Source: Parvibaculaceae bacterium
GTDB taxonomy: Bacteria; Pseudomonadota; Alphaproteobacteria; Parvibaculales; Parvibaculaceae
DNA: 64,000 bases
Reading direction: 5' to 3'
Assembly (NCBI GenBank): GCA_028283765.1
Contig: JAPWJY010000008.1
Location: forward strand, 310,001 to 374,000
A program made the translations under genes and the position numbers. The notes below the pieces were generated by a model. It made no database searches. It was not told the origin of the DNA and saw only the letters and a program-made list of their open reading frames with translations. Shown here one piece after another: positions 32,013 through 40,497 of this stretch (positions within the stretch are counted from its first letter, which is position 1; every line of letters begins with the position of its first letter).

Positions 32013-32089
32013 GCACCCGTAGCTCAGCTGGATAGAGCGTTGCCCTCCGAAGGCAAAGGCCACACGTTCGAATCGTGTCGGGTGCACCA
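32013..32089 (+). tRNA. tRNA-Arg (anticodon CCG)
   Basis: A complete cloverleaf: acceptor arms GCACCCG / CGGGTGC, D-stem GCTC / GAGC, anticodon stem TTGCC / GGCAA with loop CTCCGAA (anticodon CCG, reading CGG), T-arm ACACG-TTCGAAT-CGTGT, discriminator A and an encoded CCA. 77 nt. Confidence 0.96.
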
Positions 32090-32222
32090 TCACTCCGGAA
32101 CAAATGAGCGAATACTCCCGCCCGTGGTCTGGCCAGGACATTTCGTTCAGGTTGATGATTTCCCAATATCGTGTTCTCTTCCATATCCATACGAGCGCGT
32201 TGCCGTTACCGGGGGGAAACGT

Positions 32223-32726
32223 ATGGTAAACGTCGTCATGATGCTTCTGGGCGTGCTGCTGCCGTTGCTGCACCTGGTGCTTGGCAAGGGGCCCTGGACA
32301 CGCCGCAACATCCTTCGCCTGCTTCTTGTCTACGCATTCGTTTTTGACGTCGGCGGTGTCGGCTTCATCTTCGGTTTCATCCCGCATGTCTTCTACGCCG
32401 ACGAGGCCGCAAAGCTGATTGGCTGGCTACCCGGCAGTCCGTTCCAGTTCGAGGTCGGGCTGCATGACGGCGCCTGGGGCATCCTCGGCTTTCTGTGCGT
32501 CTTCATCGGCGGCGGGTTCTGGCTGGCGACTGCGCTCGGCTGGTCGTTCTTCCTGCTCGGCGCCGCCTACGGCCATGTGCATCAGCTGCTCGTCGAGGGC
32601 GATTTCGCGCCATACAACCTCATGCCGGCATTCACCGACACGTTTATCCCGTTGTGGCTGCTCGGACTGCTCTACGCCTACTATCGCAACGGCGGCCTCG
32701 AGGGTTTGTTGCGCCGGGAACGTTGA
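32223..32726 (+). CDS. Small multi-pass membrane protein, DUF6790-like
   Basis: 167 residues with about four membrane helices. FVFDVGGVGFIFGFIPHVFYADEAAKLIGW, FEVGLHDGAWGILGF and YGHVHQL resemble the DUF6790 family of uncharacterised inner-membrane proteins. The start at 32223 has GGGGGGAAA just before it; longer frames would run through the tRNA. It lies directly downstream of tRNA-Arg. No function can be offered. Confidence 0.8.
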   Translation: MVNVVMMLLGVLLPLLHLVLGKGPWTRRNILRLLLVYAFVFDVGGVGFIFGFIPHVFYADEAAKLIGWLPGSPFQFEVGLHDGAWGILGFLCVFIGGGFWLATALGWSFFLLGAAYGHVHQLLVEGDFAPYNLMPAFTDTFIPLWLLGLLYAYYRNGGLEGLLRRER

Positions 32727-33127
32727 AATGCATGGCGGCCCTGTGCGGCTGGCGGATGCCGTTTGTGGTGCCACAGGGATCGTCTCGATCCATGCAGCGC
32801 AGGACCATCATGTGCCGTGCCTTGCAGTTCAGGTGATTCGGAAATGGCCTGCGCCGGGGTTCAGGATCGCCGGCCCCACCCGTTGCCGCCATGGCCGTTC
32901 TTCCCAAAACCGCCGGGAAAATAATTCTGCCGGAGTGGCGCGGACTGGCCACCTTCAAACATCAGTACGCAGTCCATAGCCAGGGGAATGGTCAGGCTGG
33001 CTCCTCATTATACCGAAGGGCGGAGGCCGTATTTTATTAAGCCGGCAAGATATAAGTAGTAATCTTACGTATTTTAGAAAATTACTGAAATAATTATTCA
33101 ATCTATTGTTTATTTTTCAAATAAAAA

Positions 33128-33154
33128 TTGACACGAATAAAAAGCAAACATACT
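33128..33154 (+). promoter_or_regulatory. Candidate autotransporter promoter overlapping an inverted repeat
   Basis: A perfect TTGACA (33128-33133) is followed by CATACT (33149-33154) at 15-base spacing, which is short. The -10 position falls within the left arm of the 18-bp inverted repeat, so a protein bound there would block RNA polymerase. The upstream 90 bases are A/T tracts that could act as an UP element. Confidence 0.35.
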
Positions 33155-33177
33155 GGATGCCAGTATGTTTGCTTTTT
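33139..33177. repeat. Perfect 18-bp inverted repeat (3-base loop)
   Basis: AAAAAGCAAACATACTGG, ATG, CCAGTATGTTTGCTTTTT. The arms match at all 18 positions and end in A5/T5, so it can also act as a bidirectional intrinsic terminator. It lies 52 nt upstream of the preferred autotransporter start. Confidence 0.85.
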
Positions 33178-33229
33178 CTGGGGATGGGGAAGCATGGGCA
33201 TTGTTTCCCCAGGTGAGGGATTTTTGTCG

Positions 33230-36200
33230 ATGTTTTCTCTGACGTCTTGCTCGGACTCCGTTTCTTCGCAGGAGAGGCTCCGGTATGGCCTGAGAGCTGC
33301 CCTGCTGGCCTCTGTGGCTGGTGTGGTGCTGATCGCCCAGGCCGTTTCGCCTGCCCTGGCGGCTGACGGCGACGGGGGCAGGGGTGGCCCTTTCGATCTC
33401 GCGGGAGCGGCTGGACAAGGCAGCGCCACAGGGACCGGCGGTAGCGGTGGATCTGCTGCCAGTCCTTTTGGCGGCGGCGGCGGCGGCAGCGGCATTGTGG
33501 GTGGTAGTGGAGGAAACGGCAGTCCAGCCAGCCCGGTCATCCCGGGCGGTGCCGGTGGCAGCACTCCTGGCAGTAACGGTCAAAACGGCACCACTGCTGC
33601 AGGCGGCAGCGGCGGCGGCGGCGGCGCTCATGGTTATGTCGGTACGCTCAGCGGTTTCCCAGGTGGCTCGTTGAAGGGCGGCGATGGAGGTAACGGGGGG
33701 CTGGCCCTCGGATACGGCGGCGGCGGCGGCGGCGGCGGGTTTGGCGCGGTCCTCATCGGCCTTTCCAATACAAACTTTGCGATTACCAACTTGAGCTCCA
33801 TGACGGGCGGCAATGGCGGCGATGGCGATTGGGCTGCCGAAGGCGGCAGTGGCGGCAGCGGTCTTGTTCTTTCGAACCCGAACAGTTCCGCCGTGACGCT
33901 CGACACCATCATGACGGGGGGTAATGGCGGCACCGGCAGCGCCAACGCCAGCGGCGGCGGCGGCGGCAGCGGCTTTGTCCTTTCGAACCCGACCGGTTCG
34001 ACTACTATGACGATTAATGCCAGCGCGACGGGTGGTAGCGGTGGCGCCAGTACCAGCGGAAGCGGCGGAAGCGGCGGCATCGGCGCGAGAGTGGATAACA
34101 GTGGCGGCGCGGCTGCAACCCTCATCGTCAATGCCGCCGTCACAGGTGGCACGGGTGGTGCCGGGATTATTGCCGGTGCCGGCGGAGCGGGTATCCAGGG
34201 CCAGGACGTCACGGTCATTCTGGAGGCCGGCGCGGATGTCTCGGGAGGGTTGAGCGGCGCCGGAACACGCGCCGCCGCGATCTCCTTCACCGGGGGGACG
34301 AATGTTCTGGAACTCCAGAGTGGCGCAACCGTCACCGGCAACGTGACCGGGGCAAACGGGGACGATACCCTGAACCTCGCCGGTACCGCAGACGCCAGCT
34401 TTGCGCTTGCCGGCCTCAATTCCGGTGGCCAGTTCGGTGGCTTCGGCACCGTGCAGAAAAAGGACAGTTCCACCTGGACGCTGACCGGCAGCACCACTTC
34501 CGGTGCCGCATGGACTGTTCAGGCGGGCGTGCTCGCTCTGGTGGGCAGCGACGGATCCATCGCAAACGCGGGCAGCGTCACGGTAAACGGCACGTTCGAC
34601 ATTTCCGGCACCACGGCCGGTACGGCCATCAGGAACCTTTCCGGCACCTCTGCCGACGGTGACGTTGTTCTCGGAACCAAGGCGCTGGGGCTCACCCAGA
34701 GCACCAATGGCAGCTATGCCGGTGCCATCTCGGGCAGCGGCACATTCACCAAGAGCGGCACCGGCATGCTCAGCCTCTCCGGCAACAGCAGCGGCTTCAC
34801 CGGAACGACCCAGGTACAGGCCGGCGTCCTCCATATCGGGAACGGAACGAGCGGCACATTGGGTGGCGAGGTCAATGTCGCATCCGGCGCGACGCTGGAA
34901 GGCAGCGGCGGGACGGCGGACGGAGACGTCTCCATCGCCTCGGGCGGTGTGCTCCACGGCGGGCAGAATGGCGGCGGCCTGACCATGGGTTCGCTCATCC
35001 TCAATGCAGGCGCGATCACCAATGTGAGCCTTGCCACGCCCACCATCAGCAGCGCCGTCTTCAACACCACGGGTGCGCTCATCGTGAATGGCACGCTGAA
35101 CGTGACCGGTGAACCCGGCTACGGTCTGGGCGTCTACCGGGTTTTCGCCAGCGGCGGCACGCTTACCGATAACGGCCTTGCGCTGGGCAGCCTGCCGACG
35201 GGCAACTTCGTCACCTCGCTCGAGGTGGGGGAGACAGCCGTGGACGTCGTGGTCGATGCGCCCGACACCAGCCTCCAGTACTGGAGCGCGGATGGCATCA
35301 GCCGGGGCGGCAGCGGCAGCTGGACCGCCGCCAATGACTGGCTGAACCGGAGCGTCGGCACGGTCTCGCCCTGGGCTGGCAACACCGGCGTCTTCACGGG
35401 CACGGCCGGTACGGTGAGCGTGGCGGGAACGCAGGCTTTGGGCACCCTTGAATTTCTGACCTCGGGGTATGTGGTCGAGTCCGATGCCGGCGGCACGCTC
35501 GATCTTGGCGCCGGCGGACGGCTGTGGGCGGAGGGCGACGACACCACCGCCACCGTCTCGGCCGCCATCACCGGCAGCGGCGCCCTCACCAAGATCGGCG
35601 CAGGCACCATCGTGCTTTCAGGCGAGAACACTTACGAAGGGGGTACGGTCTTCGATAGCGGCACGCTCCAGGTGGCGGGCGACGCCAGTCTGGGTGCGGC
35701 CTCCGGCGGGCTCACCTTCAACGGCGGCACCCTGGCGACGACGGAGAGCTTCTCCAGCGCGCGCGACATCACCCTCAATCCGGCTGATGTGCTGCCCGGC
35801 AGCGGTACGCTGGACGTGGCGGACAGCACGGCGCTCACGCTGTCGGGCGTGATCTCGGGAGGCGGCGGACTCACCAAGGAGGGCGACGGCACCCTCATTC
35901 TCATCGGCGACAACACCTATACCGGCCTGACCACCATCAATGACGGCACGCTGCAGATCGGCAACGGGGGCACAACCGGGTCCATCGTCAGCGATGTGGT
36001 GAACAACGCCAGCCTCGTTTTCGACCGCTCCGGTACCTACAGCTTCCCCGGCAGCATCACCGGCAGCGGCACGGTGTCCTTCCTTGGCGGCGGCACCGTC
36101 CTGTTCGCCACGCCCGGCGCATACAACGGCCCGATCTCGGTCGAGGATGCGACCGTGACGCTTCAGCCGGGCGCGACGTCGGCCTCTCCCTTTACGGTCG

Positions 36201-37744
36201 GCGATGGCGGCATGATCAACGGCAATGGCACCATCGGCGGGCTGACGGTGAATGACGGCGGCACGGCATCCCCCGGCAACTCGCCAGGCACCATCCATGT
36301 AAATGGCGACGTCGCCTTCAACGACGGCTCCATTTACCGGATGGATGCGACGCCCGCAGGCGCACATGACCTCATCAGCGCCACCGGGGCAGTGACCATC
36401 TCCAGCGGCGCGGCGGTGGACGTGATCGCCCAGCCGGGCACCTACAGCCCGACCTCCACCTACGGCATTCTCACCACCACGGGCACCCTTGCCGGCACCT
36501 TCGGCAGCGTCACCACGGACTACGCCTTCCTCACCCCGCAACTCAGCTATGACGCGCAGAATGTCTACCTCACCCTCATCTATGACGGGGGCGATAGCGA
36601 GAGCGGCGGCATACGCTTTGCCGATTATGCCCGGACGGCGAACCAGCTGGCGGTGGCCAATGCCGCCCAGGCGCTCGGCGTGGGCAACGGGCTCTTCGAC
36701 AATGTCGTCACCTTGCCGGTTGGCTCGGTGAGGGACGCCTTCAATTCCCTCTCCGGCGAGATTTATCCTTCCGCCACCACGGTCATGCAGGAGCAGTCCA
36801 TCTATCTGCGTGACGCCGTGGGCGCGCGCCTGCGCCAGTCGGTAACGCCGGACGGCGAGACGTTTGCCCTCGCTGCGCAGGGCACGGGACCGGCAACGAG
36901 CCCGCTCAGCCACGGCCACACCACCACGATGTGGGCGCAGGGCTATGGCGGCTGGGGGAACACATCCGGCGATGGCAACGCCGCCTCCACCTCCAGCAAC
37001 ATCGGCGGCCTCCTCGCGGGCGTCGACGTGGCGGTGGCCGGCAACACCCGGGTTGGTCTTGTGGCCGGTTTCAGCCACTCCAACTTCGATGTGGATGCCC
37101 GCTCGTCCAGCGGCGACATGGATAATTACGATCTCGGCCTCTATGCCGGTACGCAGTTCGGCGGTCTCGCGCTGCGGGGCGGCGCGGCCTATACGTGGCA
37201 TGACATCTCGGCGTCCCGCACGGTGGCTTTCTCCGGCCTTGCCGACCATCTGGAGAGCGACTATCACGCGGGTACCGCGCAGGCGTTCGGCGAGGTGGGC
37301 TACGATCTCGCGCTTGGCTCCTATGCCGTCGAGCCGTTCGCGGGCCTCGCCTATGTGAAAGTGGATGGAGACTCCTTCACCGAGACCGGCGGCGTCTCCG
37401 CCCTGAACGTGGACCCGGATACCGAGGACTCGCTCTACTCCACGCTGGGCGTCCGGGCGGCGACCTCCACGCAGCTCTTCGGCCATACGCTGACCCCAAG
37501 CGTATCTGCCGGCTGGCAGCACGCTTCCGATGACAGGACGCCCCGGGCAGCCATGCGGGTTCAGGGCGGGGCGGCGCCTTTCGACATCTCCGGCGTCCCC
37601 ATCGCGCCCAATGCCGCGATCCTCGGCGCGGGCCTTGCCCTCAAGCTCTCGGATCTGGCGAGCGTGCAGGTCTCATACGCTGGCCAGCTTGCGGAGGAGG
37701 CAAAGCAGAACGCCTTCACGGCCCGATTCTCCATGAAGTTCTGA
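33230..37744 (+). CDS. Glycine-rich autotransporter with PATR repeats and beta-barrel domain
   Basis: About 1504 residues. Order: an extended signal peptide (hydrophobic core [17 protein letters not shown], cleavage after ALA near 44); a Gly/Ser-rich segment with four 37-38-residue repeats (to about residue 345); autotransporter-associated beta-strand repeats such as [20 protein letters not shown] and [20 protein letters not shown]; and a C-terminal beta-barrel (roughly the last 280 residues, from [10 protein letters not shown] to terminal FSMKF). This is a type V secretion protein exposing a beta-helix passenger, usually for adhesion or biofilm. GAGGGA lies nine bases before the ATG at 33230; an ATG at 33194 is possible. 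Confidence 0.92.
33800..34250 (+). repeat. Four tandem 37-38-codon repeats in the passenger domain
   Basis: Units begin near 33800, 33911, 34025 and 34139 (spacing 111, 114 and 114 bases). Each encodes T-GG-GG, a short linker, GG-GG-(S)G, then a hydrophobic strand such as [16 protein letters not shown]. Codons differ between units, so they are old repeats. GGC triplet runs (for example 33717-33735) are superimposed. Confidence 0.75.
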
Positions 37745-37761: not shown

Positions 37762-37794
37762 GCGCCTTGCCTGAAAGACGATCAGGCAAGGCGC
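37762..37794 (+). terminator. Stem-loop terminator after the autotransporter
   Basis: A perfect 13-bp stem, arms GCGCCTTGCCTGA and TCAGGCAAGGCGC, seven-base loop, 17 nt after the stop. There is no T-run, so the termination mode is uncertain. Confidence 0.6.
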
Positions 37795-38068
37795 GTCATC
37801 CCGGGTAGAGCCGGGAAATCTGGCGCCCATATTATTCACCAGACCATTAAGCCCAGCCCTGATTTTCAGTTTAATCTCAATGGCGATGCAGAAATGCAAC
37901 AGATTATCAATTGCAAGGAATGGTGGCCGGTGGCCTGGTGTGGAAGTATTCAAGAAAGAAAAAGGCGTTCATTGCTTATAAAGAAGGTTAATTATACTAA
38001 ATTAAAGTGACAGTCGAAGTGTTGGGTGGAGCTTCCGGGAAGCCGGAATAATCCACAATTTCATTGTT

Positions 38069-38087
38069 GATAATGCGTTTCATTATC
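38069..38087 (+). promoter_or_regulatory. Fur box
   Basis: GATAATGCGTTTCATTATC is a 19-base palindrome with seven-base arms identical to the classical Fur consensus arms. It lies 67 nt upstream of a TonB-dependent siderophore receptor. Confidence 0.8.
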
Positions 38088-38102
38088 CTTGTCATTGTTG
38101 CG

Positions 38103-38115
38103 AATGCGTTGCATT
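38103..38115 (+). promoter_or_regulatory. Second Fur-family-like palindrome
   Basis: AATGCGTTGCATT, arms AATGC/GCATT, centred 31 bases (about three helical turns) from the main Fur box. Probably a second Fur or Irr contact. Confidence 0.45.
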
Positions 38116-38154
38116 AGTGTCCCCCGAAACTATCGTTCCATACTGGGGGTATAC

Positions 38155-40497
38155 ATGTCTCTGTCGCGTTTGCGTGATTCATTGTCTTCGGCCGCACCGG
38201 CCTATCTGGCATTGAGTTGCTTCAGTCTTATGGCCTCGCCCGCATGGGCGCAGGATGCGGGCAAAACCGGTGACGAAACGAAACCGGTCGTTCTGGGGGG
38301 GATCGCCGTCACCGATACGGCAGTCACCGACGGCTTCAAGGTCGACAAGGTGTCCTCGCCCAAATTCACACAGCCATTGCAGGATACGCCGCAAACCATC
38401 CAGATCATCAGCAAGGATCTGTACAATCAACAGGGTGCGACCACGCTGACCGAAGCGCTGCGCAACAGCCCTGGCGTCGGCACATTCTATGCGGGTGAAA
38501 ACGGATCCTCCTCCGTCGGCGATTCCATCTATATGCGTGGCTTCGATACGTCGAGCAGCATCTTTGTCGATGGCATCCGCGATCTGGGCACAGTCTCTCG
38601 CGATCTCTTCAACATTGAACAGGTGGAGGTCGAAAAGGGCCCGGCAGGGACCGATAACGGGCGAACCGCGCCAACGGGCGCCATCAACATGGTCAGCAAG
38701 CAGGCCTTTCTCGATAACGTCCAGTCCGGCAGTATCAGCGCCGGTGTCGACGGTCAGAAGCGGGCGACCGTCGACGTCAACCAGACCCTCGACTCACTGC
38801 CCAACGCCGCATTCCGCCTGAATGCGATGTGGCAGGACAGCGATGTGCCTGGCCGCGATCATGTCAAGAACAAGCGTGTGGGTCTTGCACCTTCACTCGG
38901 TCTTGGCCTGGGGACTGCTACGCGGGCCTATATCGACCTCTATTACGTCAACCAGAACAATATTCCGGATGGTTTTGTGCCGACGATCGGCCTGCCGGGC
39001 TGGCAGCCGCAACCGGGGCTTGGGCAACTGGCCGGTCACAAGGTCAATTCAAAGAATTTCTATGGCACGCGCAACGACCACGACGATGTCACGTCGGAAA
39101 TGGCCACGGTGCGTCTCGAACATGATTTCTCCAACAATCTGAAACTGTCCAATATCGCGCGCTGGGGGCAGACCAAGCAGGACTATCAACTCACTTCCTT
39201 CATGTCCACGGGCGGTACAAACGCCACCCCGATGAGCGGCAACATCAAATGGACCGATATCAACGATCTGTCCACCTACACCATGGCGCGCAGCAACCCC
39301 ACCGTGCAGGACCTGAAGAACGAGATCCTGACCGATCAGCTCAACCTGCAGGCGGATTTCGCCACAGGTCCCGTGAAGCACAGCCTGAGCACCGGTATCG
39401 AGATCACCAGTGAAAAGCTGACTTCTTATGGACTGGGTACGACGGGCAGTCTGGCTGCCGCCAACCTCTACGACCCGGACTGGAACGATGTGAACACGCT
39501 CAGCGCGTGGCGCAACGGGGCCCTGGCCAAGGGCAAGACCGATACCCAGTCCATCTATGCATTCGACACCGCGAAGTTCTTCGAGGACAGGCTGTTCCTG
39601 ACCGGCGGCGTGCGGGTCGATCATTACAAGACCACATATGACAGCACGGCGGCATGTGGCGGCACGGGGCGCACCGTTGTGCCCTGCGGGGCGCTGCCGA
39701 CCGGTTCTATCGTCAGCACAGCCGATCTGTCGTCCAGAGACACCTTGTTCAACTGGAAACTGGGTCTGGTCTACAAGCCGGTCAAGGTCGTCAGTCTTTA
39801 TACAGACTATGCGATCTCCCAGCAGCCGCCCGGCGGCGCGAACTTCACCCTCAGCTCGGCGGCCAACAACGCCAATAATCCCAACCTCAAGCCGCAAAAG
39901 GCGAAGACATACGAAGCGGGCGTCAAGTGGAGCGCACTGGACGAGAAACTGGCTCTGAACGGGGCCGTGTTCCAGACCACGGTGACGAACGAGATCAACA
40001 GCGACATTCTGGACGATGCCGGCAACCCCACCCAGACCGGCAAGAAGCGGGTCAGGGGCTTTGAGTTGTCCACCGTGGGCCAGATCACGGATGACTGGTC
40101 GATTTCCGCCGGATACAGCCATCTCAAGACGAAGGTTACGGAAGGCCCCGCCGTTACCAGTGACGGCTCGCCCAATCTGACCTATACGCCGGGTGATTCC
40201 TTCACTCTGTGGACAAACTACACCCTTCCCTTCGGTCTCGAAGTCGCCGGTGGCGCCCGTTACAATGACGGGCTGCACCGCGGGACGGATGGGGCGGTGG
40301 GCACGCCCGCATTTACCAAATCCTATACGGTCTGGGATGCAATGATGGCTTATGCCCTCACGGACAATGTCAAGCTGCGTATGAATGCTTATAATTTGTT
40401 CGACAAGGACTATGTCGTGTCGATCAACAAGAGCGGCTATCGCTACTTGCCGGGCACACCTCGGACGGTCCTGTTCAGCGTGGACTTCCGCCTGTAA
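38155..40497 (+). CDS. TonB-dependent catecholate siderophore receptor (Fiu/PiuA-like)
   Basis: 780 residues from the ATG at 38155 (GGGGG six bases upstream). Signal peptide to about residue 33 (AWA-QD). The plug domain follows (TPQTIQIISKDLYNQQGATTLTEALRNSPGV, then YMRGFDTSSSIFVDGIRD and VEVEKGPAG), then a 22-strand barrel ending in LFSVDFRL. Sequence style and the PiuC gene downstream match the Fiu/PiuA group that imports catecholate or monocatecholate iron complexes with TonB energy. The Fur box upstream implies induction by iron limitation. Confidence 0.92.
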   Translation: MSLSRLRDSLSSAAPAYLALSCFSLMASPAWAQDAGKTGDETKPVVLGGIAVTDTAVTDGFKVDKVSSPKFTQPLQDTPQTIQIISKDLYNQQGATTLTEALRNSPGVGTFYAGENGSSSVGDSIYMRGFDTSSSIFVDGIRDLGTVSRDLFNIEQVEVEKGPAGTDNGRTAPTGAINMVSKQAFLDNVQSGSISAGVDGQKRATVDVNQTLDSLPNAAFRLNAMWQDSDVPGRDHVKNKRVGLAPSLGLGLGTATRAYIDLYYVNQNNIPDGFVPTIGLPGWQPQPGLGQLAGHKVNSKNFYGTRNDHDDVTSEMATVRLEHDFSNNLKLSNIARWGQTKQDYQLTSFMSTGGTNATPMSGNIKWTDINDLSTYTMARSNPTVQDLKNEILTDQLNLQADFATGPVKHSLSTGIEITSEKLTSYGLGTTGSLAAANLYDPDWNDVNTLSAWRNGALAKGKTDTQSIYAFDTAKFFEDRLFLTGGVRVDHYKTTYDSTAACGGTGRTVVPCGALPTGSIVSTADLSSRDTLFNWKLGLVYKPVKVVSLYTDYAISQQPPGGANFTLSSAANNANNPNLKPQKAKTYEAGVKWSALDEKLALNGAVFQTTVTNEINSDILDDAGNPTQTGKKRVRGFELSTVGQITDDWSISAGYSHLKTKVTEGPAVTSDGSPNLTYTPGDSFTLWTNYTLPFGLEVAGGARYNDGLHRGTDGAVGTPAFTKSYTVWDAMMAYALTDNVKLRMNAYNLFDKDYVVSINKSGYRYLPGTPRTVLFSVDFRL

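Follow-up and report, generated by a model that had tools for sequence, protein, structure and literature searches.

A perfect inverted repeat with the build of a bidirectional terminator overlaps a candidate autotransporter promoter in a Parvibaculaceae bacterium

In the 64,000-nucleotide stretch of a Parvibaculaceae genome analysed here (the window), a perfect inverted repeat of 39 bases, AAAAAGCAAACATACTGG-ATG-CCAGTATGTTTGCTTTTT, lies 5' of an autotransporter gene and overlaps its candidate promoter (Table 1). In its build this dyad resembles a terminator, in its placement it does not. The reading that we put first, while holding it at somewhat under an even chance, is that the dyad acts as a bidirectional intrinsic terminator which contains the promoter of the autotransporter gene and so shields that promoter from outside transcription.

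Table 1. Positions in the window of the dyad, the candidate promoter elements and the surrounding features
Feature	Position	Strand	Remark
AT-rich stretch	33020..33180	.	24-32% GC in 120-base windows; window mean 63%
Candidate -35, TTGACA	33128..33133	+	upstream of the dyad
Perfect inverted repeat (dyad)	33139..33177	.	18-base arms, ATG centre; bidirectional terminator-type hairpin (A5-stem-T5)
Candidate -10, TACTGG	33151..33156	+	TANNNN type, 17-base spacer, within the left arm
Weak second leader hairpin	33185..33211	+	10 pairs including one G-T, over ATG 33194
Autotransporter gene	33194..37744	+	start at 33194, or at 33230 with AGGTGAGGG at 33211-33219

A sequence-only reading had described a perfect 18-bp repeat around a three-base centre, and this is what we found, with 18 of 18 positions paired. 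When resampling the 241 bases from 33000 to 33240 with a first-order model (3000 times), the longest perfect arm was 12, reached once, and an arm of 18 never appeared; chance is excluded as the origin of the dyad. We also surveyed perfect hairpins in 464 kb of the genome, comprising the window and 20 sampled stretches of 20 kb (400 kb). Requiring arms of 10 or more bases and loops of 3-9, we found 35, of which the dyad is the longest; the next longest arms have 14 bases. As RNA, the dyad folds with a dG of -23.5 kcal/mol, or -18.3 kcal/mol when the A5 and T5 ends are left out; a single strand folded as DNA gives a z-score of -8.9.

On both strands the dyad has the outline of an intrinsic terminator: A5, a stable GC-closed stem, a loop of 3 and a T5 (the U tract of the transcript) directly after the stem. 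The stem is followed by TTTTTCT on the + strand and by TTTTTATT on the - strand. Terminators between convergent genes of the same genome have this outline too (e.g. AAAAGCCCGGTCC...GGACCGGGCTTTT). To score hairpins we used a d'Aubenton-type terminator score d. Without A5 and T5 the dyad scores 32.0 on the + strand and 37.9 on the - strand, within the range of -3.9 to 67.9 given by 13 convergent-gene hairpins of the genome scored on both strands. A wider scan yielded 37 hairpins with d of at least 20, the dyad being counted on both strands. Among these, 27 follow a stop codon on the same strand, 26 of them at 11-46 bases and the dyad at 418, where the ORF calls are mechanical and the category labels thus approximate; for instance, the - strand of the dyad was labelled as inside a gene because the ORF caller stretched the autotransporter to TTG 33128. 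With its distance of 418 bases, the dyad is therefore called terminator-type rather than a gene-end terminator. Furthermore, its stem GC of 0.46 is the lowest of the 37 (both rows with this value are the dyad), the next being 0.69. The stop-codon distance and the low stem GC both count against a terminator. A generic terminator scan did not list the hairpin, in our view because it counts the T5 into the stem.

The promoter candidate rests on TTGACA upstream of the dyad. This hexamer had been noted before at a distance of 6 bases; it is present, and the gap is five bases (33134-33138). The earlier proposal that the -10 and the start fall inside the dyad survives in its geometry, since TTGACA-17-TACTGG fits the alphaproteobacterial sigma-70/sigma-A consensus and is thus a candidate promoter. 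For Zymomonas mobilis, the cited passages of PMC7566282 give this consensus as TTGNNN, a 17-base spacer, TANNNN and a 6-base discriminator, and they describe the -10 of Z. mobilis and C. crescentus as having no conserved T-7. Taking the same 6-base discriminator, transcription is predicted to start near 33163, in the right arm. The 16S rRNA gene, at about 91% identity to plasmid-borne copies of Phyllobacterium, Ensifer and other Rhizobiales, marks the host as an alphaproteobacterium.

TTGACA-17-TACTGG is the sole TTGNNN-(16-18)-TA on the + strand of 32727-33250. AT-rich DNA often contains the loose pattern by chance: mononucleotide shuffles of 33020-33180 contained TTGNNN-(16-18)-TA in 67% of cases and TTGACA-17-TA in 0.6%. 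Judged by the E. coli type of sigma-70 promoter (TATAAT-like -10 with a final T, spacer of 16-18), the site fails, as TACTGG agrees with TATAAT at two of six positions; CATACT agrees at four of six but requires a 15-base spacer from TTGACA. A generic sigma-70 scan found no + strand promoter at the dyad and only one on the - strand (33120-33093). We think that the scan misses the candidate because it demands a T at -7. In 271 upstream regions of the genome, 17 was the most frequent same-sense spacer between TTGAC. and TA, with seven cases including the dyad site; spacers 12-16 gave 1, 0, 1, 0 and 1, spacers 18-22 gave 1, 5, 1, 3 and 2, and spacer 17 in antisense gave three. This excess is weak and in the expected direction. 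TTGACA alone showed no enrichment ahead of genes, with 12 same-sense and 10 antisense occurrences.

The sequence-only reading had also offered an insulating terminator with a promoter downstream. The terminator anatomy holds, whereas a promoter 3' of the hairpin is unlikely and was rejected, because no TA dinucleotide occurs between the dyad and ATG 33230 (33178-33229). A sigma-54 promoter has GG in its -24 element; such a promoter in the right arm was rejected by eye for want of this GG.

A promoter inside the terminator would work as follows. Polymerase arriving from the left, from the side of the tRNA-Arg and DUF6790 genes, would transcribe the whole hairpin and five U and stop. Polymerase reading the autotransporter gene in antisense, and so coming from the right, would likewise transcribe the hairpin and five U and stop. 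Polymerase initiating at TTGACA-17-TACTGG would begin in the right arm and yield an autotransporter mRNA with no left arm, so that the hairpin could not fold and would not terminate. Thirty-nine bases would thus shield the gene of a surface protein from incoming transcription while its own promoter still fires. The low stem GC would be explained if the arm also has to serve as the -10. We infer that a promoter within a terminator would account at once for the terminator-like build, the unusual position and the GC-poor stem of the dyad; where transcription starts, that it is terminated in vivo and that the gene is shielded are what the sequence leads us to propose. The parts are ordinary and their overlap is unusual; as proposed, this overlap varies what is already known.

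The gene to the right of the dyad is an autotransporter by its Pfam domain (PF03797, E 2.4e-73) and PATR repeats, and has in-frame ATGs at both starts given in Table 1. The second leader hairpin has a z-score of -2.05 and was equalled in 6 of 200 shuffles. To the left lie a tRNA-Arg(ccg) at 32013-32089 and a DUF6790 ORF (32040-32726), whose mechanical start overlaps the tRNA. In other genomes of the family, the DUF6790 matches listed span at most the first 41 residues, about the tRNA-overlapping part, and thus the protein itself appears to be absent from the rest of the family. No repeats of the tRNA-Arg of at least 12 bases were found elsewhere in the window, and no tRNA stood near the hydrolase homologue in any of nine other loci scanned. 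The tRNA-Arg neighbourhood is thus not common to the other loci, but a tRNA-derived island was rejected, since a search for its boundary found none. A GC-rich hairpin with 13-base arms and no T tract lies at 37762-37794, 18 bases past the autotransporter stop.

To the right of the autotransporter follow a TonB-dependent receptor, whose in-frame ATG is probably at 38155, and a PKHD-type hydroxylase. In named genomes, 38 of 38 loci have the hydroxylase close to the receptor, and none of the 38 has the autotransporter. Upstream of the receptor (38065-38118) are two tandem repeats, ATAATGCGTTTCATTAT and GAATGCGTTGCATTAG, which we take to be Fur-box-like. With these repeats of its own and the 38 of 38 against 0 of 38 loci, the receptor-hydroxylase pair forms its own unit, so that the dyad most likely acts on one gene only. 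We rejected co-regulation of the autotransporter with this iron-uptake pair, since elsewhere the pair stands without an autotransporter. The receptor is 72% and the hydroxylase 88% like those of Novosphingobium album (L048), while among 60 relatives the best receptors are only about 40% alike over the larger part of the query. This difference suggests that the pair may have arrived by horizontal transfer.

A check proposed earlier was to look for the same repeat elsewhere in the genome, and none was found: the dyad is unique in its genome. Allowing up to three mismatches, a single arm occurs at four places, two of which are the dyad itself. The 16-base core recurs at nine other places, each with three mismatches, where about nine are expected by chance. 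At up to three mismatches, the 29-base dyad pattern is found in one of 61 genomes, its own, and is absent from the 60 relatives; likewise, only its own among 385 genomes of a class sample, which partly overlaps with the 61, carries the pattern, and the 384 others do not. Exact matches among viral contigs were absent, and a plasmid search gave four weak partial matches. We thus rejected a recurring regulatory motif, as the dyad was not found in relatives, class sample or viral contigs and its near-matches in the genome are at chance level.

The 331 bases around the dyad also match only their own genome among the 61. Autotransporter relatives occur in 30 of the 61 genomes, including this one, and the best from other genomes align mostly in the C-terminal part at about 35-42% identity. 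With surroundings confined to one genome and relatives that are mostly C-terminal, the non-conservation of the dyad says little about its function. When comparing 20 stretches at related autotransporter genes from 19 genomes (one of them, L117, with only 9 bases upstream), we observed no perfect arm above 10 near the mechanically chosen start. Four stretches from other genomes of the family (L114, L118, L126 and L127) have in common a dyad CGCATACCCC-ATCC-GGGGTATGCG (CGCATACCCCATCCGGGGTATGCG), about 115 bases before the related autotransporter ORF, directly past the end of the upstream ORF and without a T tract. Kinship to the present dyad through CATAC...GTATG was dropped, as spacing and place differ.

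An operator, which the sequence-only reading had suggested as a switch of surface display, ranks close behind the terminator with its embedded promoter, and we regard it as possible though doubtful: a dimeric or two-dimer repressor would bind the dyad, which covers the predicted promoter from about -24 to +15, and block RNA polymerase. A dyad over the -10 and the start is the classic position for repression, the distance to the stop codon and the low GC set the dyad apart from the genome's terminators, and promoter regions of E. coli are enriched in inverted repeats, according to the cited part of PMC6060812. Non-terminator dyads do stand upstream of genes in the same genome, as at L096:18127-18151, where an AT-rich dyad, ATACTATATT-GTTTT-AATATAGTAT, abuts TTGACA 26 bases before an ORF; with a d of -39 it appears operator-like rather than terminator-like. 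However, a single repressor dimer reads fewer than the 18 perfect pairs found here, A5/T5 included, and a T5 that follows the stem without a gap is typical of terminators. Furthermore, no related site recurs, the dyad is not kept in relatives, and no regulator gene is adjacent: among 20 ORFs scanned in the window, the only regulators were a TetR (21988) and a LysR (46769), each over 10 kb away from the dyad. A distant regulator with this one target may nevertheless exist. An operator accounts for the placement equally well, but not for the flush A5/T5.

We consider it unlikely that transcription starts upstream in the AT-rich stretch and that the hairpin sits in the 5' leader as an attenuator or a 5' stabiliser of the mRNA. 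The RNA form is highly stable, and the cited part of PMC6060812 describes an enrichment of inverted repeats in the 5' UTRs of E. coli, at 20-45 bases ahead of the start codon. At L088:8478, a terminator-like hairpin (T6, d 46.5), possibly an attenuator, also lies 54 bases before an ORF; 417 bases to its left there is another ORF, on the minus strand. Against a leader hairpin, 32727-33250 offers no second + strand promoter of the above pattern, and the dyad folds in each of the four leader segments that contain it whole, with no antiterminator seen; attenuation with an antiterminator was rejected, as there is no competing fold. Still more improbable is a terminator that has nothing to do with the autotransporter and ends an unannotated transcript of 32727-33138, either a small RNA or a long 3' end. 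The score of the dyad and some 410 bases without a recognised gene would suit it, but this region has no Rfam match and no convincing ORF, and the autotransporter would be left without a promoter candidate. We give equally little credence, if not slightly less, to a cruciform switch, in which the AT-flanked dyad would extrude under negative supercoiling, destroying the -10 and start of the autotransporter, and be reset by passing transcription or relief of supercoiling. Surface display would then track local supercoiling and neighbouring transcription without a dedicated regulator.

When comparing the dyad to known systems, we find its build in bidirectional intrinsic terminators of E. coli and Z. 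mobilis, which have an A tract, GC-closed stem, short loop and U tract on both strands. As far as the cited passages of PMC7566282 go, those of Z. mobilis have a mean dG of about -17, against -18.3 in the dyad, and the mean stem has about 11 pairs, against 13-18; they usually lie just past stops, often between convergent genes, whereas the dyad lies 5' of a gene and overlaps a promoter. At hupA of E. coli, a large inverted repeat with cruciform potential likewise overlaps the promoter, but a DNA-level cruciform with HU is proposed there, and the cited section mentions no terminator trait (PMC3969353). In Porphyromonas gingivalis, too, a large inverted repeat precedes a locus for a surface structure, the K-antigen capsule; that repeat, however, has 77 bp and encodes an antisense RNA, and no promoter within the dyad is described in the cited portions (PMC3969353, PMC8757827). 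Lastly, at vtrB of Vibrio parahaemolyticus an intrinsic terminator also separates incoming transcription from a gene that has a promoter of its own, although it ends an upstream operon with regulated read-through, and the cited text describes no overlap with the promoter (PMC10971746). Our literature search found no report of autotransporter genes with an inverted repeat, an operator, phase variation or a leader terminator or attenuation, and none on the present arrangement among the papers listed.

If the dyad were an operator instead, it could lead to a so far unknown regulator of surface display. If the terminator does contain the promoter, one sequence of 39 bases would serve both functions and form a compact, insulated promoter for a surface protein that is costly to make. 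Such a simple natural part would also allow one to test whether a transcript that is initiated within a terminator escapes termination.
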